NCBI GenBank assembly: GCA_021776235.1
Contig: JAJFGG010000009.1
Coordinates: forward strand, 1-64,000
Direction of reading: 5' to 3'
Origin: Alphaproteobacteria bacterium
Lineage (GTDB): Bacteria > Pseudomonadota > Alphaproteobacteria > GCA-2731375
DNA length: 64,000 bases
How positions within the stretch are numbered: position 1 is the stretch's first letter; each line of letters opens with the position of its first letter. The notes under the pieces are model-generated. The model was not told the DNA's origin. It did no database searches and saw nothing but the letters and a program-made list of their open reading frames with translations. Positions 8,392 to 54,184 of this stretch are shown here, one piece after another. The position numbers were made by a program, and so were the translations under genes.

Positions 8392-8700
8392 TGCATGCTT
8401 TCTCAAGTATTAATAAACATAAAATAGAAAAAATGAAACAATTCACAAAATATAATATTGCATCTATTTCATTTTACTCTGTGACATGCATCATACTGAA
8501 TAAGTAAATATCAATTTTAATTTAATTCTTACATTCATTAACGCAAAATGGTTAATTTATTACGACTATTAACATTGAAATATGTATTGTAGCGCCACCT
8601 AATTTTTGAAAAGATAGTGTAATCTCGCTGGTCGCTCTCTGAAATCCATGGTGCGGGGTCACAGCAGCACGTCCCAATTGGCCGACCAAGGCGAATGACC
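8392..8700. other. AT-rich divergent region, probable IS110 left flank
   Basis: A strongly AT-rich stretch (8400-8620) upstream of the minus-strand TadG gene, then a GC-normal stretch (8620-8700) directly ahead of the transposase remnant. The first part probably holds the promoter of the minus Tad genes. The second part is where IS110-type elements keep their non-coding end, which in that family encodes a guide (bridge) RNA. I cannot delimit an RNA from sequence alone. Confidence 0.4.
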
Positions 8701-9015
8701 ATGATTGAGTATTTCGGACTTGATGTTTCAAAGGAAGAGACCAGTTTTTGCGTGATGGACGGGGGTGGCAGGATTTTGGCGCGAGGCAACGCTTTGAGCG
8801 ATCAGCAGTCATTGTTCAGGGCCCTGCGCAAGGACATGCCTTGCCCGGAGCGGATTGCGCTTGAGACGGGGACCATTTCGAACTGGCTGGCGGGAGGACT
8901 TCGTGCACATGACCTGCCCATGGATGTGATCGATGCGCGCCAGGCGCATGCGGTTATGAAACTTCAGCACAACAAGACGGACGCCGATGACGCCGACGTC
9001 CGTGAATTCGTCTAA
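8701..9015 (+). pseudogene. IS110-family (DEDD) transposase, N-terminal remnant
   Basis: The frame encodes about 104 residues starting MIEYFGLDVSKEETSFCVMD, the IS110 N-terminus with the first catalytic Asp in GLDVSK. It continues through LETGTISNWLAGGL, IDARQAHAVMKLQHNKTDADDAD, the second conserved acidic block. Intact family members have about 300-400 residues with a C-terminal transposase_20 domain. Here the frame stops at REFV-TAA and nothing of the C-terminal domain follows, so the gene is a truncated relic. It lies between two divergent Tad sets. Confidence 0.85.
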
Positions 9016-18790: not shown

Positions 18791-19225
18791 ATGAAACGAG
18801 CAACCGAACCATCCTGGATGCCCGCACCTGAATACGGCCGCGGTTTACGCGGCCTGGGCCTCAACCTGGTGGTCCGCGATGTGCCGGCAGCGTTGGCCTT
18901 CCAGACCGAAATCCTGGCGGCGGAAGTTGTCCATGGTGACGTGGATTTTGCCGCCTTGCGCGGTTACGGGTCGGAATGGATATTGCACGCGGACCACACC
19001 TACAGCGACCATCCCCTGAAGGGCAGCCTGGGCGCCGATCTGGCCCGCGGCATCGGCGCCGAATTGCGCCTGTACGGCCGCGATCCCGACGTGGCCGAGG
19101 CCCGGGCCCGCGCCTTGGGCTACGAGGTTCTGGCCGGCGCCATGGACAAACCCCACGGCTTGCGCGAGGCCTATATCATCGACCAGGACGGCTATCTCTG
19201 GGTTCCCGGGGTGCCCCTGCCGTGA
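18791..19225 (+). CDS. VOC-superfamily (glyoxalase-like) protein
   Basis: A 144-residue protein from ATG 18791 (MKRATEPSWMP), with ACGAGG about 9 bases upstream. The frame open back to 18695 overlaps the regulatory region. Visible VOC features are LRGLGLNLVVRDVPAALAFQ at the N-terminus and the C-terminal AYIIDQDGYLWVPGVPLP. It is divergent from the MocR regulator. Its last 196 bp are repeated with about 95 percent identity at 20330-20525, 1300 bp downstream. Function unknown beyond the fold. Confidence 0.82.
   Translation: MKRATEPSWMPAPEYGRGLRGLGLNLVVRDVPAALAFQTEILAAEVVHGDVDFAALRGYGSEWILHADHTYSDHPLKGSLGADLARGIGAELRLYGRDPDVAEARARALGYEVLAGAMDKPHGLREAYIIDQDGYLWVPGVPLP
19030..19225 (+). repeat. 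Direct repeat copy 1 (3' end of VOC gene)
   Basis: These 196 bp align without gaps to 20330-20525. I count about ten mismatches by eye. The offset is exactly 1300 bp. The two copies flank the toxin-antitoxin pair. Confidence 0.9.
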
Positions 19226-20329: not shown

Positions 20330-20525
20330 GGGCGCGGATCTAGCCCGCGGCATCGGCGCCGAACTGCGCCTGTACGGCCGCGATCCCGATGTGGCCGAGG
20401 CCCGGGCCCGCGCCTTGGGCTACGAGGTACTGGCCGGCACCATGGATAAACCCCACGGCTTGCGCGAGGCCTATATCATGGACCAGGACGGCTATCTCTG
20501 GGTTCCCGGGGTGCCCCTGCCCTAA
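20330..20525 (+). pseudogene. VOC gene 3' fragment (direct repeat copy 2)
   Basis: The 196 bp encode the last ~64 residues of the VOC protein, in frame to TAA 20523-20525, with no start region. Of nine coding differences from copy 1, seven are synonymous (including TGA versus TAA), so the copy diverged while still under selection and lost its 5' part later. Its stop overlaps the convergent TauD-like gene by 3 bp, which looks like the ancestral arrangement. Confidence 0.88.
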
Positions 20526-41840: not shown

Positions 41841-41923
41841 AGCGATTTGACCGCTGCCCCGCAGGCAATCCCGTGGCGCCAGTGAATATCGGTATAGATT
41901 TCGGCAGAAAGGCGGAGACTTTG

Positions 41924-42895
41924 ATGGCCAAGGTTTTCATTAGCAAATGCCTGGGGCTACTGCTCGGTTTTCTGATCACGGCCGGAAGCCAACCAGCCCT
42001 CGGGAGCGAGGACATTCCGGACCAGTATCCGCAATCGCTGCTCTATTCCAAGCCAGTGGAAGTCATACCGCATGTATGGTCGGCGATTGGCGCCAGCGCC
42101 CCGCCCACTTACGAAAATTCCGGCCACAACAATAACCTGTCGTTCATTGTGACCGGCGACGGGGTGGTGGTGATCAATGGCGGCGCGGCCTATCTGCTGG
42201 CCAAGGCTTTACACGACGAAATCAAGATAATCACGAAAGAACCCGTGAAGCTGGTAATCAACGAAAACGGTCAGGGCCATGCCATGCTGGGCAATGGCTA
42301 TTGGGCGGAACGTGGCGTGCCCATCCTGGCCCATGTGGACGCGGCGGCGGCGTTCGAAGAAGACAGCGGCGACATTTTGCGTCGCATGCAACGCTACAAT
42401 AAGGACAAGGCCAACGGCACCAAAGAAACCGGGCCAAGCGATACGCTGGAAACCGAACGTATCATCAAGATGGGACGGTTTCGTATCGAAGTCAGGTTGC
42501 TGGGTCCGGCCCATTCGCCCGGAGATATTTCCGTCTGGCTGCCGGAGCAGGAACTGGTGATCGCCGGCGACATGGCATTTCATGAGCGCCTTCTGCCCAT
42601 CTTCGACGACACGGATACGGCGGCCTGGCTGGAAAGCTGGAAAACCTTCGAAGCCTTGAAGGCGCGGTATGTCATTCCGGGGCACGGGCATCCCACCAAT
42701 ATGGCCCAGGTACGCCGTTACACGCGCGATTACCTGGTCCACCTCAGAGGCCAGATCGCAAAACACCTTGCAGCAGGTGGCGATCTAAAAGGCGCCTACG
42801 AAGTAGACCAGGCCGCCTACGCCCATCTTGATACGTTCGAACAATTGGCCAAGCGCAACGCGGGACGGGTTTTCGTTCAAATGGAGTTTGAATAG
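41924..42895 (+). CDS. SoxH-like MBL-fold protein with altered metal motif
   Basis: A 323-residue exported MBL-fold protein from ATG 41924 (MAKVFISKC), with GGCGGAG upstream and a signal peptide ending near PALGSED. The typical HxHxDH motif is replaced by INENGQGHAMLGN, which removes most zinc-1 and part of zinc-2 ligands. The later MBL elements are present: AHSPGD, IAGDMAF and IPGHGHPTN. Similar proteins accompany sox clusters (SoxH) or quinoprotein systems. It is convergent with the DsrE-like last gene of the sox operon. Confidence 0.78.
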   Translation: MAKVFISKCLGLLLGFLITAGSQPALGSEDIPDQYPQSLLYSKPVEVIPHVWSAIGASAPPTYENSGHNNNLSFIVTGDGVVVINGGAAYLLAKALHDEIKIITKEPVKLVINENGQGHAMLGNGYWAERGVPILAHVDAAAAFEEDSGDILRRMQRYNKDKANGTKETGPSDTLETERIIKMGRFRIEVRLLGPAHSPGDISVWLPEQELVIAGDMAFHERLLPIFDDTDTAAWLESWKTFEALKARYVIPGHGHPTNMAQVRRYTRDYLVHLRGQIAKHLAAGGDLKGAYEVDQAAYAHLDTFEQLAKRNAGRVFVQMEFE

Positions 42896-42901
42896 ATTAA
42901 C

Positions 42902-42948
42902 CAGGCCCGGGCCGCAATTGCCCGCAACGTGTTGCCTGTTAGGGCCTG
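42902..42948. terminator. Possible bidirectional hairpin between convergent genes
   Basis: CAGGCCC (42902-42908) can pair with GGGCCTG (42942-42948) around inner GCAAC-GT-GTTGC. It lies between the stops of the MBL and DsrE-like genes and overlaps the DsrE stop. No T-run. Confidence 0.35.
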
Positions 42949-43394
42949 ACGACCGTCCAGCCTTTTTCATCCAATTCTATGATCCGCACCACGCCGGCGG
43001 GAACCATTTCGGTAAAGGTGAACAGTTCTGGCGCCTTGCCTTCCTTTTTCGTCATCGCCGAATGGGTATTGCCGCAGGCCATGAATTTAACATTTGTCAT
43101 ACTCTTGGAAAAAGACTGCATCCGCTTGGCGACAGGGGATGTATCCACTCGCAGCATATGCAGGCCGCGGTTGAAGGCGACGATTTCAATCTCGACTTCT
43201 TCACCCTTGTCGGAATAGTACCGGGATACGTTGGCCGCAACGTTCAGCACCGTGTTCATCTTTTGCGGATCTTTGTCACTGATCTGCAGCACCAGTTTGT
43301 GAACATCTTCCTCAGCCGCATGTGCAGACGGAAAGGCCATAACGGCGACCGAAAGAATCAATGCGAAACTCAATATCAAATTTCTGATAGGCAT
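42939..43394 (-). CDS. Exported DsrE-like family protein
   Basis: A 151-residue protein with a signal peptide (FALILSVAVMAFPSAHAAEE) and a DsrE/F-like fold: KLVLQISDKDPQKMNTVLNV, VEIEIVAFNRGLHMLRVDTS and VKFMACGNTHSAM with the conserved Cys position. DsrE-type proteins carry sulfur as persulfides. Last gene of the sox operon on the minus strand, 34 bp after soxD. A role in periplasmic sulfur handling next to Sox enzymes is likely but unproven. Confidence 0.85.
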   Translation of the reverse strand: MPIRNLILSFALILSVAVMAFPSAHAAEEDVHKLVLQISDKDPQKMNTVLNVAANVSRYYSDKGEEVEIEIVAFNRGLHMLRVDTSPVAKRMQSFSKSMTNVKFMACGNTHSAMTKKEGKAPELFTFTEMVPAGVVRIIELDEKGWTVVRP

Positions 43395-48888: not shown

Positions 48889-49344
48889 TCATTTGAGTTG
48901 ATTCAAATAGGCCAGAATATCCTCGACCTGCTGTGCGGTGAGGATCGTCTTGCCCATAAATTTCTTGGCGATGCGTGTGTAACCGTCGGCGATGTAAAAG
49001 GACGGCATGATCGTGTCTTCGAAGACAACCTTCGAATCGACCAGGATCATACGTAATTCGGCCTCTTTCCAACGCCCGGAGACGCCATCAAGAGATGGGC
49101 CAACTTCGCCATGGAACGGTTGATCTTTCAGCGCGGAGGACGAATGACAGGCCAGACAATTGCCCTGTTTGCGATTCAGCAATGCCTTTTTTCCGCGCCC
49201 CGGATCACCGGCTTCCATTGTCAGTGATTTGGGTATCGTCTTGTCGATAACCTCGAATGCCACCGGTGCGGCGCAGACCGGCAAAGCGAAGCCAACGGCA
49301 ACGGCCAACGCCGTAACAAGCCTTGTTGCGTTGAGTTTCATCAT
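48889..49344 (-). CDS. soxX: SoxX monohaem cytochrome c subunit
   Basis: A 151-residue exported cytochrome from ATG 49344 (MMKLNATRL), with GGAGAG upstream. The frame extends to 49410 but the extension crosses the operator. The haem motif is CLACH (Cys63-His67), and the distal Met is likely in DTIMPSFY. Pairs with SoxA. First gene after the soxW-soxX operator. Confidence 0.94.
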   Translation of the reverse strand: MMKLNATRLVTALAVAVGFALPVCAAPVAFEVIDKTIPKSLTMEAGDPGRGKKALLNRKQGNCLACHSSSALKDQPFHGEVGPSLDGVSGRWKEAELRMILVDSKVVFEDTIMPSFYIADGYTRIAKKFMGKTILTAQQVEDILAYLNQLK

Positions 49345-49406: not shown

Positions 49407-49426
49407 ACATATGAAAACTTGCATGT
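49407..49426. promoter_or_regulatory. SoxR-type operator 1 (soxW-soxX)
   Basis: ACATATGAAAACTTGCATGT, an imperfect inverted repeat. It matches operator 2 at 17 of 20 bases. It lies 62 bp upstream of soxX, in the region where Paracoccus pantotrophus SoxR binds. Confidence 0.8.
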
Positions 49427-49468
49427 TTTCTCGCACATCTCCCCCATTGCAGTCGGATAGTTTCATCT

Positions 49469-50050
49469 TCAGGTGGCCTGTTTCAGATAGTTGCGAAAGC
49501 TCAAGCGCTCGTAGGCGCGCTGCTCCACGTACATGAACATCTTCAAAAAATGATTCGGCTTCATGTATCCCGCAAGACGGCTGACTTCCCGCTGCCTCGG
49601 CTTGGTATCCGCGCCAAAATCAGCAACGGAAGGGAAAAACTGTATCGTTGGGGTGAAGCTGACACTGTACTTCCGAGCCAGTTTACGCTCCGAAAGCTCT
49701 TCGCCGTCAAAGTCCACGACCTTTCGTGAGCCAATCAGGTTGAGCTGCAATATTTCGAAATTCGTTCTGATGAAGGCAAGAATATCCGGCCGCGCAAAAT
49801 TAACGAGATGAGTTTCCCTGCAATAGGGACAACCCTTCAGCTCCCAGATGACGGCAAACCGTTTGCCGTTTGCGGCACTTTCGCTAAGGTCATCGGCCAG
49901 TTCCAGAAAACTTTCGAGAAACCAAGGTTGATGATAAAGCCCATCATCACCCAACACCGGACCGCTGTCAGAGGCCCCGGCGAGCGGCGGCAAAACCATG
50001 CTGCCCGTCAAGCTCCCCAAGGCCAAAACTGCGGTCCTGCGTGTCATCAT
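49469..50050 (-). CDS. soxW: SoxW-like periplasmic thioredoxin
   Basis: About 193 residues from ATG 50050 (MMTRRTAVLALGS). A Tat-like signal is followed by a thioredoxin-like fold with CxxC Cys74-Cys77 (KGCPYCRETH) and cis-Pro in SFTPTIQFF. SoxW proteins keep Sox components reduced using electrons from SoxV. The extension to 50236 crosses operator 2 and the divergent gene, so it is rejected. Confidence 0.85.
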   Translation of the reverse strand: MMTRRTAVLALGSLTGSMVLPPLAGASDSGPVLGDDGLYHQPWFLESFLELADDLSESAANGKRFAVIWELKGCPYCRETHLVNFARPDILAFIRTNFEILQLNLIGSRKVVDFDGEELSERKLARKYSVSFTPTIQFFPSVADFGADTKPRQREVSRLAGYMKPNHFLKMFMYVEQRAYERLSFRNYLKQAT

Positions 50051-50081
50051 TTCGATGATCTCCCCACGCTCTTTACGCTTC

Positions 50082-50101
50082 ACATATAATAATTTGCATG
50101 T
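50082..50101. promoter_or_regulatory. SoxR-type operator 2 (soxW-divergent gene)
   Basis: ACATATAATAATTTGCATGT, extended by C and G to CACAT...ATGTG. A TATAAT is embedded at 50085-50090 on the plus strand, so binding would cover a -10. It lies 46 bp ahead of the gene at 50148. Confidence 0.8.
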
Positions 50102-50147
50102 GAAGGTAGGTGAGAACATATCGCTTGGCAAGTAAATTAGTGGGATT

Positions 50148-50885
50148 ATGACAATGGCGAACTTCACCAGGGCCTTTTTCTGCCTGCTGGCAACATGCCT
50201 TTTCGCGGCGCCGGCCGCCGCCGAAGTAAGCCGCACCAGTGAATTCCACCGCGCCTTGGGTCAGGCAATGTCCCATCTTCGAACAGCGAACGGATATCTA
50301 AGAACCCGGAATGGGGACCTAGCGGCAATTGAGCTGGAAGGCCTGATCGAAAGCTGGAAAATGGTTGCCACGGCGTCTTCGCCCGCGCCCGATGCCTATG
50401 CCGAGGATCTCGGGTTCGGCGCGGCCATCCGTTCGGCGGCCGATGCTATGACGATGGCTCTGCGGCAGGCAGACCAGGGCGAGCTTATGGCGGCGCGTAA
50501 TATACTGCTCAGAATCCGCCGTGACTTGTCGCTGATGCGGCGGCGCAACGGTCAGGTCATGCTGGCGGATTGCATTTTGGACCTGAATGACGCCGGCCAG
50601 CCGTTTTGGCTATACTATCGGATACAGCCGGATTGGAATGTTTTCAAAGTCCAATATGACATGATCACCCGGGCCGGAAATTATCTCTATCTGCTGCGTC
50701 GATGCGATGCATCGGCGCCGAAGGCCGTTCGAGAAGATCCCGAATTCCGCCGCCTGATCGACGGGGCAACTGATAGTTTATCCAGGATGCCGCAGGTCGT
50801 CCAAGACCGGAATAGTAATCTGCTGGATCGGATTTTGGGCCAGCTGCGGTCTATTGACAGGTTGCTGCACTTTCGCTTTGGCTGA
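50148..50885 (+). CDS. Secreted protein of unknown function in the sox locus
   Basis: A 245-residue protein (or 243 from ATG 50154) with a signal peptide ending near FAAPAAAEVSR. I do not recognise a family. The mature part is predicted mostly helical, with LRTANGYLRTRNGDLAAIEL, ALRQADQGELMAARNILLRI and a Cys pair far apart (ADCILDLN and LRRCDAS). No CxxCH, CxxC or TM. A SoxR-type operator lies just upstream, and it is flanked by soxW and soxV/ccdA. It is therefore probably induced with the sox genes and acts in the periplasm. Confidence 0.8.
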   Translation: MTMANFTRAFFCLLATCLFAAPAAAEVSRTSEFHRALGQAMSHLRTANGYLRTRNGDLAAIELEGLIESWKMVATASSPAPDAYAEDLGFGAAIRSAADAMTMALRQADQGELMAARNILLRIRRDLSLMRRRNGQVMLADCILDLNDAGQPFWLYYRIQPDWNVFKVQYDMITRAGNYLYLLRRCDASAPKAVREDPEFRRLIDGATDSLSRMPQVVQDRNSNLLDRILGQLRSIDRLLHFRFG

Positions 50886-50897
50886 TGGCATCAGGCC

Positions 50898-51635
50898 CTA
50901 GCCAATGCGGCCCAAACCGGGAAACGTCTCCAAAATCCAAAAAGAAATTTCCGGCACCGCGCCAAATATGAACAACAATCCCGTGGCCACCAGCAGGGCC
51001 CCGGTGATTTTTTCGATCAAAGCCATCCGGCGTTTTACCTTGGCAGCCCAGCGCAAAAAGCGTGGTGCGAACGCTGCCGCGCCAATAAATGGCAGCCCAA
51101 TCCCCAGGGCGTAGGACGCCAACAGATAGCCGCCCTCCAACATGCTCTCCTCCGCCCCGGCAACCATAAGGATGACAGCGAGTACCGGGCCGACACATGG
51201 CGTCCAGCCAAAGGCAAAAGCCAGTCCCATTAAATAGGCCCCGGCAAGGCCCGCGGCTTGCCCATCGACATTAATGCGCAATTCCCGGTAAAGGGCATTG
51301 ATCCGCAAGACGCCAGCGAAATGCAGCCCGGCAAGAATGATGACGCCCCCGGCGACGCGCGCCAAAACATCAAAATATTCGCTGACAATCTGCCCCAGGT
51401 AGGACGCCGCCAAGCCCAGCAGCACGAAAACCGTCGAGAACCCGGCCACGAAACTGACGGCTGAAATGATGGTTCTGCGGGTGACATCATGGCCTGTCGC
51501 TTCGCCGCTGAATTGCTGAAAGCTGATACCGGCGATGAAACATAGATAGGGCGGGACAATTGGCAACACGCATGGCGACAGGAATGACAGCAGGCCCGCC
51601 AGAAAGGCACCCAATATGCCAATATCCATGCCCAT
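50898..51635 (-). CDS. soxV: SoxV/CcdA-type thiol-disulfide membrane transporter
   Basis: A 245-residue, six-TM CcdA-like protein. The redox cysteines are in FLSPCVLPIVPPYLCFIAG and FGWTPCVGPVLAVIL. It moves reductant from cytoplasmic thioredoxin to periplasmic SoxW/SoxS. GAAGGAA precedes the ATG. It is divergent from soxS and convergent with the unknown gene. Its -10-like TATAAT lies in operator 3. A general CcdA role in cytochrome c maturation is an alternative. Confidence 0.9.
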   Translation of the reverse strand: MGMDIGILGAFLAGLLSFLSPCVLPIVPPYLCFIAGISFQQFSGEATGHDVTRRTIISAVSFVAGFSTVFVLLGLAASYLGQIVSEYFDVLARVAGGVIILAGLHFAGVLRINALYRELRINVDGQAAGLAGAYLMGLAFAFGWTPCVGPVLAVILMVAGAEESMLEGGYLLASYALGIGLPFIGAAAFAPRFLRWAAKVKRRMALIEKITGALLVATGLLFIFGAVPEISFWILETFPGLGRIG

Positions 51636-51650
51636 GAAAATTCCTTCAAT

Positions 51651-51670
51651 ACATGCATAAAATTATATGT
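51651..51670. promoter_or_regulatory. SoxR-type operator 3 (soxV-soxS)
   Basis: ACATGCATAAAATTATATGT; its reverse complement matches operator 2 at 17 of 20 positions. It abuts a perfect TATAAT (51670-51675) for soxS, and contains TATAAT on the minus strand (51667-51662) for soxV. Confidence 0.82.
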
Positions 51671-51694
51671 ATAATGACTTAGAGCGTTTATTGG

Positions 51695-52096
51695 ATGCAG
51701 GCAAGTGCTATGCGGCTACACCTCGCCTTGATCGTTATGCTGCTGACGACGTCACCAACCTATGGTGCGCAACTGGTGATGTTTAAGAGCGACACCTGTG
51801 AATGGTGCGAAACGTGGGATGACGTTATCGCGCCGATCTATCCAAAAACCGCCGAAGGACGTCAGGCGCCGTTGCGCCGCGTTGATATTCACGATACCCG
51901 CCCCCCCGATCTGGAACATTTGCGCGGCATTCATTTCACGCCAACCTTTGTCTTGATCGCCGAGGGACGTGAGATTGGCCGCATTACGGGCTATCCAGGC
52001 GAGGACTTCTTCTGGGGCCTTTTGGAACAACTGATCAGAAAGTTGCCGGCAACGGTGGCTGCATCATGCAAGAAAGAGGGTCTAACGAAATGCTGA
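51695..52096 (+). CDS. soxS: SoxS-like periplasmic thioredoxin
   Basis: A 133-residue exported thioredoxin-fold protein (alternative start 51710). The signal peptide ends near PTYGA. The redox motif is CEWC (Cys35-Cys38) and the cis-Pro is in HFTPTFVLIAEG. SoxS reactivates SoxY in the Paracoccus system. Its 3' end overlaps the start region of the next gene. Confidence 0.88.
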   Translation: MQASAMRLHLALIVMLLTTSPTYGAQLVMFKSDTCEWCETWDDVIAPIYPKTAEGRQAPLRRVDIHDTRPPDLEHLRGIHFTPTFVLIAEGREIGRITGYPGEDFFWGLLEQLIRKLPATVAASCKKEGLTKC

Positions 52097-52599
52097 AGAA
52101 ACTGAGTCTTTCAATTGCCATAATAATCCTTTGCGTTTCAGGTACGTCAGCGATCGCCGATGAGGGCGGTGCCTTTGTCACCTTCAAGGTTCTGAAACCG
52201 GAAGTCGCCCTGGACCTGGCAAAAGCCGCGCTGGCGAGCTGCCGGAAAAATGGGTTTCAAGTCGCGGTCACCGTGGTCGACCGCTTCGGCATTACCCAGG
52301 TTACGCTGCGTGACCGGTATGCCGGCGCTCATACACCGGAAACCTCCAGGCGAAAGGCCTGGACGTCGGCCAGCTTTCGCGGTGCGACACTCGAGCTGGC
52401 CGGTGCGACGAAAGCGGGCAGCCAACTTTCCGGCGTGCGATTTGTTACAAACGCATTAATGGCAGGCGGTGGCGTACCTATTGATGCGGGCGGGACAATG
52501 GTGGGTGCGGTTGGCGTTTCCGGTGCGCCCACCGGTGATGCGGATGAAGCATGCGCACAGGCCGGAATAGACGCGGTCGAAGACCAGATCGCGTTTTAG
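52090..52599 (+). CDS. Exported HbpS/GlcG-like protein
   Basis: A 169-residue protein from ATG 52090 (MLKKLSLSIAI) with signal peptide ending near TSAIADE. The GlcG/HbpS fold is seen in LDLAKAALASCRKNGFQVAV, VTVVDRFGITQ, SRRKAWTSASF and GVPIDAGGTMVGAVGVSGAP. Family members bind haem or cofactors. Its stable place between soxS and soxR suggests a haem- or sulfur-related helper role, though this is unproven. The next gene follows closely. Confidence 0.87.
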   Translation: MLKKLSLSIAIIILCVSGTSAIADEGGAFVTFKVLKPEVALDLAKAALASCRKNGFQVAVTVVDRFGITQVTLRDRYAGAHTPETSRRKAWTSASFRGATLELAGATKAGSQLSGVRFVTNALMAGGGVPIDAGGTMVGAVGVSGAPTGDADEACAQAGIDAVEDQIAF

Positions 52600-52697: not shown

Positions 52698-53045
52698 ATG
52701 CCCGCGAAACCACAGACTATGCCCGAAGACCTCAACGATCGCACCATGAGCGAAATGTTGAAGAATGCCCAATCCGCCACGGATCTGGTCAAGGCCGTGG
52801 CCCATGAAGGCCGCTTGATTATTCTGTGCATGCTGGCGGAAAAGGAGCGTTCCGTCACTGATCTGGAGCAAATTCTTTCGCTGAACCAGCCGTCCGTTTC
52901 ACAGCAGTTGGCGCGTCTGCGGTCCGATGGCTTGGTTGACACCCGGCGCGACGGCAAAACGATTTATTATTCATTGGCAAGCGAGAATGCCCGCAAGGTT
53001 GTCGAACTATTGTACGATCTGTACTGCAAGCCGCGCGTTCCTTAG
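52698..53045 (+). CDS. soxR: SoxR-type ArsR-family repressor
   Basis: A 115-residue winged-helix repressor if ATG 52698 is used; ATG 52719 and 52746 are alternatives, and the frame is open back to 52551. The ArsR core runs AHEGRLIILCMLAEKERSVT, QILSLNQPSVSQQLARLRS then DGKTIYYSL. A Cys in ILCMLAEKE and another near the C-terminus (LYCKPRVP) match the two-Cys layout of sulfane-sensing SoxR/SqrR proteins. It is the likely binder of the three 20-bp operators. Confidence 0.9.
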   Translation: MPAKPQTMPEDLNDRTMSEMLKNAQSATDLVKAVAHEGRLIILCMLAEKERSVTDLEQILSLNQPSVSQQLARLRSDGLVDTRRDGKTIYYSLASENARKVVELLYDLYCKPRVP

Positions 53046-53077: not shown

Positions 53078-54184
53078 ATGCAGGGGTCCGAGATAAATCT
53101 TCTCATGGGGCTTTGCGGCCTCATATCCGGCGGTCTGCTTGGCGCGGCCGCGCGGTACGGTGGGTTTTGCACCTTCGGCGCCATTGAAGATGGTTTTCTG
53201 GCACGGGACTTTCGGCGCCTGCGGGCCTGGGCATTGGCGGTCAGTATCGCCATCCTGCTTGTCGGCGTGATGCAGTTCGTCGGGGTTGGCCGGATCGAGG
53301 AATCATTTTATCTCGCCCCCCGCATAGCCTGGTTGTCAATCGTCGTCGGCGGCCTATTGTTTGGCTACGGCATGGCCATGGTGGGGACCTGCGGGCTTGG
53401 CTCTTTGGTCCGCCTTGGCGGTGGCGATCTTCGTTCCCTGGTCATCATGATCGTCATGGGTCTGTTTGCCTACATGACGGCACGGGGCCTACTCGGGTTG
53501 ATCCGGATTAACTGGCTCGACCCAGTCGGCACATCCCTTGAAAGCATATCCGGACAGGGGTTGGCCCATATTGCGGCCAAGATGTTTGGCGTTGACCTGC
53601 GGCTAAGTTGGCTCGTTACCGCATTATCGCTCGTAACCGCCATCTGGATCTGGTGCTTCAACAGCCGGAAATTCCGGGTCACTAAGCGTTTGCTGATCAG
53701 CGCATTTGCAGGCGGGTTCGCCATTGCCTTTGGATTTTTTGCCACGGGCTATCTTGGTGACGATCCCTTTAATCCCCAGCGCGTCGTATCCAGTACATTC
53801 GCGCTGCCGCCGGGCGAAGCATTGGTGTATCTCATGACATTTACCGGCGCGCATCTGGATTTTGGCATCGGCAGCGTCGCCGGTGTCGTGCTTGGCGCCT
53901 TTGCTGTCGCTGCCGGCAGAAAACAAATTCGTTTTGAGGCCTTTGATGATCACCGCGAAATGCGCCGCCACCTGTTTGGCGCCGCACTCATGGGGTTCGG
54001 CGGCGTAACCGCGATGGGTTGCACCATCGGGCAAGGCATGAGTGCCATGGCCGTGATGTCGGTTTCCGCGCCGCTCGTCCTGGCCAGCATTTTCCTCGGC
54101 GCCTGGATCGGCCTGCATAGTCTGATGGAGGGCTCGTTGATAGCCGGCTTGCGCATCGCCATGATCGATCACTGGCGCGGCTGA
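53078..54184 (+). CDS. YeeE/YedE-family (TsuA-like) thiosulfate transporter
   Basis: A 368-residue polytopic membrane protein with the three conserved Cys regions of the YeeE family: YGGFCTFGAIEDG, GTCGLGSLVRLGGG and AMGCTIGQGMSAM. In characterised members these cysteines pass thiosulfate through the membrane. Located 32 bp after soxR. It probably imports thiosulfate or another sulfur compound for the regulon. Confidence 0.9.
   Translation: MQGSEINLLMGLCGLISGGLLGAAARYGGFCTFGAIEDGFLARDFRRLRAWALAVSIAILLVGVMQFVGVGRIEESFYLAPRIAWLSIVVGGLLFGYGMAMVGTCGLGSLVRLGGGDLRSLVIMIVMGLFAYMTARGLLGLIRINWLDPVGTSLESISGQGLAHIAAKMFGVDLRLSWLVTALSLVTAIWIWCFNSRKFRVTKRLLISAFAGGFAIAFGFFATGYLGDDPFNPQRVVSSTFALPPGEALVYLMTFTGAHLDFGIGSVAGVVLGAFAVAAGRKQIRFEAFDDHREMRRHLFGAALMGFGGVTAMGCTIGQGMSAMAVMSVSAPLVLASIFLGAWIGLHSLMEGSLIAGLRIAMIDHWRG

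Follow-up and report, generated by a model that had tools for sequence, protein, structure and literature searches.

Three related palindromes in a sox gene cluster

Are the sox genes of this bacterium switched by one repressor acting at three places, and is the site in the middle of the cluster a regular part of that arrangement? The window, by which we mean the whole 64-kb stretch that was analysed, carries soxX (48889–49344, minus strand; TIGR04485, 84.9 bits, over the cut-off) as the first gene of the soxXYZABCD operon. Next come soxW (49469–50051, minus strand) for a periplasmic thioredoxin (PF13098, 1.2e-14) and a gene at 50148–50885 (plus strand), here called the unnamed gene, which was annotated from a 22-sequence alignment and a structure model as coding for a conserved sox-linked periplasmic protein. 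They are followed by soxV (50898–51635, minus strand) for a CcdA/DsbD-like membrane thiol transporter (PF02683 and gene order) and, all on the plus strand, by soxS (52096 being the end of 51695–52096; periplasmic thioredoxin-like, with weak thioredoxin matches and a gene order as in relatives), an HbpS/GlcG-like gene (hbpS, 52066–52599; PF03928, 6e-30), soxR (52698–53045) and soxT (53078–54184) for a YeeE/YedE-type sulfur transporter (PF04143, 2.8e-58). The hbpS insertion between soxS and soxR is found at the same position in six relatives (L040, L041, L054, L056, L059 and L081) and after soxS in G181. SoxB has one copy in the genome, inside this cluster. Beside soxCD we named two further genes by eye, both with relatives in other sox loci: a probable metallo-beta-lactamase-fold protein (42895 being the end of 41873–42895) and a small DsrE-like periplasmic protein (42939–43394).

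Three 20-bp sequences, none assigned to a strand, lie in the gaps between these genes. Operator 1 (49407–49426, ACATAT-GAAAACTT-GCATGT) is found in the soxX–soxW gap ∼63 bp ahead of where soxX starts, operator 2 (50082–50101, ACATAT-AATAATTT-GCATGT) between the divergent soxW (start ∼31 bp off) and unnamed gene (46 bp off), and operator 3 (51651–51670, ACATGC-ATAAAATT-ATATGT) in the gap between the divergent soxV and soxS. A sequence-only reading of the window had reported near-identical sequences at 49407, 50082 and 51651 in just these gaps, and its identity counts proved exact: 17 of 20 bases are shared by sites 1 and 2, and again by site 2 and the reverse complement of site 3. It was also right that two of the sites, 2 and 3, overlap or abut TATAAT. 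Site 2 includes this hexamer at 50085–50090 on the plus strand, i.e. the strand of the unnamed gene; site 3 includes it on the minus strand (51667–51662) and is abutted by a plus-strand copy (51670–51675), and site 1 contains none. The description as inverted repeats holds for imperfect palindromes, of which only ACAT-N12-ATGT is exact; the symmetry reaches 2 bp further outward in site 2 (TCACAT..ATGTGA) and site 3 (ATACAT..ATGTAT). Every site is composed of one ACATAT and one ACATGC half with 8 bp between them (6-N8-6), in register with the relatives-only matrix described below. A strong promoter complete with −35 box is not evident at any of the three, which counts against reading them as SoxR operators. 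Duplication of an operator as the source of the likeness was rejected because the similarity ends ∼2 bp beyond the 20-bp sites.

On its own, a 17/20 match of two imperfect palindromes is unremarkable: the 64-kb window holds 37 such pairs, some of which come from direct repeats. When the window was searched with a pattern derived from the three sites themselves, allowing ≤3 mismatches, 3 matches were found against 0.07 expected, and none of 100 shuffles reached 3. The presence of three sites in three regulatory gaps inside 2.3 kb is above chance. In the 6.36-Mb assembly nothing beyond the three sites matched site 2 with ≤3 mismatches. The genome scan that the sequence-only reading had asked for was thus run as a pattern search, the matrix scan covering the 64-kb window; it brought up no further convincing site, and by this search the SoxR regulon appears restricted to the three sites in the genome. 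The pattern ACATRY-N8-RYATGT gave two additional genome matches, and both were rejected as regulon members: C2:7703 lies close to a PspA-like gene and reads as another kind of palindrome (TGTAA..TTACA), C15:12665 has a GC-rich spacer, and neither obtains a family-matrix score. The former (G000:C2:7703–7722, ACATGTAATATGTTACATGT) is probably the operator of another regulator. Within the window, a cluster of sites at 8407–8590 that score with the family matrix was put down to composition because this gap, before Tad-pilus-type genes, is very AT-rich; the several weak matches of the gap (8407–8600) are followed by the apparent start of an IS110-type transposase near 8703. Elsewhere, two near-identical segments 1300 bp apart (19053–19190 and 20353–20490) perhaps represent a duplication.

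The repressor and the sites of its relatives

The gene order soxS–hbpS–soxR–soxT places an ArsR/SmtB winged-helix repressor gene on the soxS and soxT side of the cluster. SoxR is of the BigR/SqrR type (HTH_5, 2e-13; BigR model match), and is distinct from the MerR-family SoxR of E. coli. Its nearest solved chain is an ArsR-family regulator, matched over residues 17–111. Against the NCBIfam equivalog model sulf_sens_BigR it reaches 104.1 bits, below the curated cut-off of 155; by its sequence, SoxR is a member of the BigR subfamily but not the BigR equivalog itself. Both sensor cysteines of the SqrR/BigR/SoxR subfamily are kept in an alignment to 80 relatives and solved ArsR chains. The genome encodes two more BigR-type ArsR proteins, ∼48% identical to SoxR, at C108:6231–6509 and C170:24042–24314 (L120, L121). 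One paralog gene adjoins an RND-type efflux operon. Its counterpart, which has an ATATTC-type site of its own, adjoins ccdA/tusA/tauE-like genes.

For comparison we used 80 loci from other genomes that encode a SoxR relative. With the window excluded, ATTC-N8-GAAT, which is the site deduced for SqrR (PMC9774250), was strongly enriched with an 8-bp spacing, giving 73 sites spread over 54 of the 80 loci against 2–25 at any other spacing, and the family consensus is the SoxR/SqrR-type sequence ATATTC-N8-GAATAT. A symmetric 24-bp matrix was trained solely on the sox gaps of the relatives. Scored at every position along the 64-kb window, it ranked operator 2 first, operator 3 second and operator 1 third; with the soxW–unnamed gene gaps left out of training, the ranks were 1, 2 and 4, respectively. 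In the relatives a site was found in 39/39 soxX–soxW gaps and 53/53 soxV–soxS gaps, both of which belonged to the training set, with shuffled gaps passing the threshold in 13–16%. The soxW–unnamed gene gaps, held out of training, had a site in 18/23 cases compared to 1% in shuffles, and the control gaps in 0/25 (soxW–soxV), 4% (soxS–soxR) and 2% (soxR–soxT). These proportions count loci and are not all independent, because several Bradyrhizobium loci are close relatives. The attribution of the sites to SoxR, as put forward in the sequence-only reading, is supported by the SoxR/SqrR-type sites in the same gaps of relatives and by the ranks 1–3 of the relatives-only matrix: the three sequences are very probably operators of the SoxR encoded at 52698–53045.

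The middle operator and the unnamed gene

All 12 relatives that share the gene order of the window have all three sites, so that the middle operator is no local oddity; sox clusters of this form regularly include it. L040 and G181 resemble the window down to the hbpS insertion, and G181 likewise has all three sites. Where soxW is split from soxV by the extra divergent gene it has an operator of its own, and where it directly follows soxV it has none. The SoxR proteins of Paracoccus pantotrophus and Pseudaminobacter salicylatoxidans reportedly act from operators in the soxS–soxV and soxW–soxX regions. Sites in both of these regions are present in the window, which shares with the two systems the repressor family, the gene neighbourhood and these two operator positions, in a comparison by region; it differs by the third operator between soxW and the extra divergent gene. 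The middle operator had been called new, and it is so in relation to this two-region model, but not beyond it, given its conservation in relatives with the gene pair. The result is a three-operator map of a thiosulfate-oxidation switch in which the third operator is regular in one branch of sox clusters.

The sox locus of Bradyrhizobium shows the same order, soxX–soxW–unnamed gene–soxV–soxS–soxR–soxT, and the same three operators; it differs by ATATTC/GAATGT half-sites, the lack of the hbpS insertion and a SoxR with Arg63. In B. diazoefficiens thiosulfate induces soxW ∼90-fold, a response that a soxR mutant no longer shows (PMC5748708). Going by the Bradyrhizobium loci in our comparison, we infer that the strain of that study carries the same soxW site.

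Which of the two divergent genes does operator 2 serve? Its counterpart in relatives also lies upstream of soxW, so that the conservation could stem from soxW alone, with the unnamed gene as a bystander of the shared gap. We give this a small though appreciable chance: relatives keep the two genes divergent in 23 gaps, the TATAAT in operator 2 is on the strand of the unnamed gene, and in clusters that lack this gene and have soxW behind soxV, a site precedes soxW in 0/25 gaps. If operator 2 acts on both genes, a conserved periplasmic protein would come under the predicted control of SoxR. Relatives of the gene mostly adjoin sox genes (24 of the 80 soxR loci), and among the genomes of the class 9/385 contain a match, again mostly next to sox genes. 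One genome of the same genus (L122, G010:C1:300000–319000) has a sox cluster with the unnamed gene and no SoxR in the stretch examined; its soxW–unnamed gene gap contains no site >10 bits.

The protein itself has no Pfam or NCBIfam match, and a search against PDB sequences yielded nothing convincing, the top profile matches being designed helical proteins. In the structure model (mean pLDDT 91.6) a signal peptide-like helix precedes two predicted tandem four-helix bundles. Each half aligns with cytochrome b562/c′-type bundles at Z ∼12.5, a value reachable by helical arrangement alone, and Foldseek gave E > 0.1. CXXCH, the covalent haem site of cytochrome c′, is absent from the protein and from the conserved columns of the 22-sequence alignment. 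Cys142 and Cys186 are kept in nearly all members of this alignment and could form a disulfide. A link of these cysteines to the thiol chemistry of the neighbouring SoxV and SoxW is plausible as a hypothesis.

Half-sites that depart from the family consensus

The window shares the 6-N8-6 spacing, the AT-rich spacer and a persulfide-sensor ArsR protein with the systems of SqrR (Rhodobacter capsulatus), BigR and YgaV. Their sites read ATTC-N8-GAAT, whereas the halves in the window are ACATGC and ACATAT. Literal ATTC or GAAT halves are missing here, a departure that speaks against the SoxR reading, and T is found at position 5 in 0/6 half-sites. In the relatives 112/122 sites have T at this position in ≥1 half, and in each locus examined it occurs in at least half of the half-sites, the two tallies coming from matrices and cut-offs that differ a little. 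A shift that recurs at all three sites suggests that the sequence preference of SoxR has changed. At position 63, where the recognition helix starts, SoxR has Asn; the alignment shows Arg there in 80/80 close relatives. However, Asn63 as the sole cause of the shift was rejected because a second SoxR with this residue (L130/L152), 52–58% identical, belongs to a sox cluster with ATTC- and GAAT-containing sites, which in L152 adjoin its gene.

With two BigR-type paralogs of SoxR encoded elsewhere in the genome, insulation from them is a possible reason for the shift, which would be a small natural case of a persulfide-sensing repressor and its operators changing together beside paralogs. We consider it rather unlikely that the full combination applies, namely that SoxR and the three operators jointly shifted their specificity (ACATGC as the strong half instead of ATATTC; Asn63), thereby insulating the sox regulon from both paralogs, and that the unnamed gene in addition encodes a so far undescribed periplasmic protein that SoxR controls and that takes part in thiosulfate oxidation.

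The paralogs also raise the question whether the three sites are operators of one of them, or shared among them. Their similarity to SoxR would allow for this, and ATACATACAAAACTACAAATATTT, the best site ahead of the C108 paralog, has an ACAT arm as well. Against it, the gene of the C170 paralog comes with a conventional ATATTC-type site, operator 3 stands before the very operon that contains soxR (soxS–hbpS–soxR), and the sites of relatives accompany a linked soxR; we regard ownership by a paralog as very improbable.

A model for sox control

That the three sequences are mere promoter elements, alike as −10 regions with AT-rich flanks, has next to no probability despite the TATAAT at two of them: the shared ACAT and GCATGT letters are not promoter consensus, site 1 is without TATAAT, and relatives keep a palindrome of fixed spacing in the same gaps. 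In the preferred reading as SoxR operators, a SoxR dimer on each site would block RNA polymerase at the promoters of the soxX operon, of the divergent soxW and unnamed gene, and of soxV and the divergent soxS–hbpS–soxR–soxT genes. Bound SoxR would overlap or adjoin the −10 elements at sites 2 and 3 and would sit upstream of soxX at site 1, from where operator 1 is expected to govern the soxXYZABCD operon. With operator 3 heading soxS–hbpS–soxR–soxT, SoxR would limit its own synthesis. When thiosulfate is oxidised, sulfane sulfur, the presumed signal that SoxT perhaps imports, would bridge the two SoxR cysteines and take the repressor off the DNA, so that all sox promoters would open together. 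In B. diazoefficiens a soxR mutant loses the thiosulfate induction of soxS, soxV, soxW and soxY1 (50- to 4500-fold; PMC5748708, Table 2), and polysulfide treatment, reported to bridge the two cysteines of SoxR from Hyphomicrobium denitrificans, stops DNA binding by this protein (PMC10451225).

The switch is a well-conserved case of a known kind, and its points of interest are the conserved third operator and the shifted site sequence. SoxR and sHdrR of H. denitrificans are ArsR-type sulfane-sulfur repressors that bind several intergenic regions of sulfur-oxidation genes; that system differs by a truncated Sox set together with sHdr genes and by its two related repressors.
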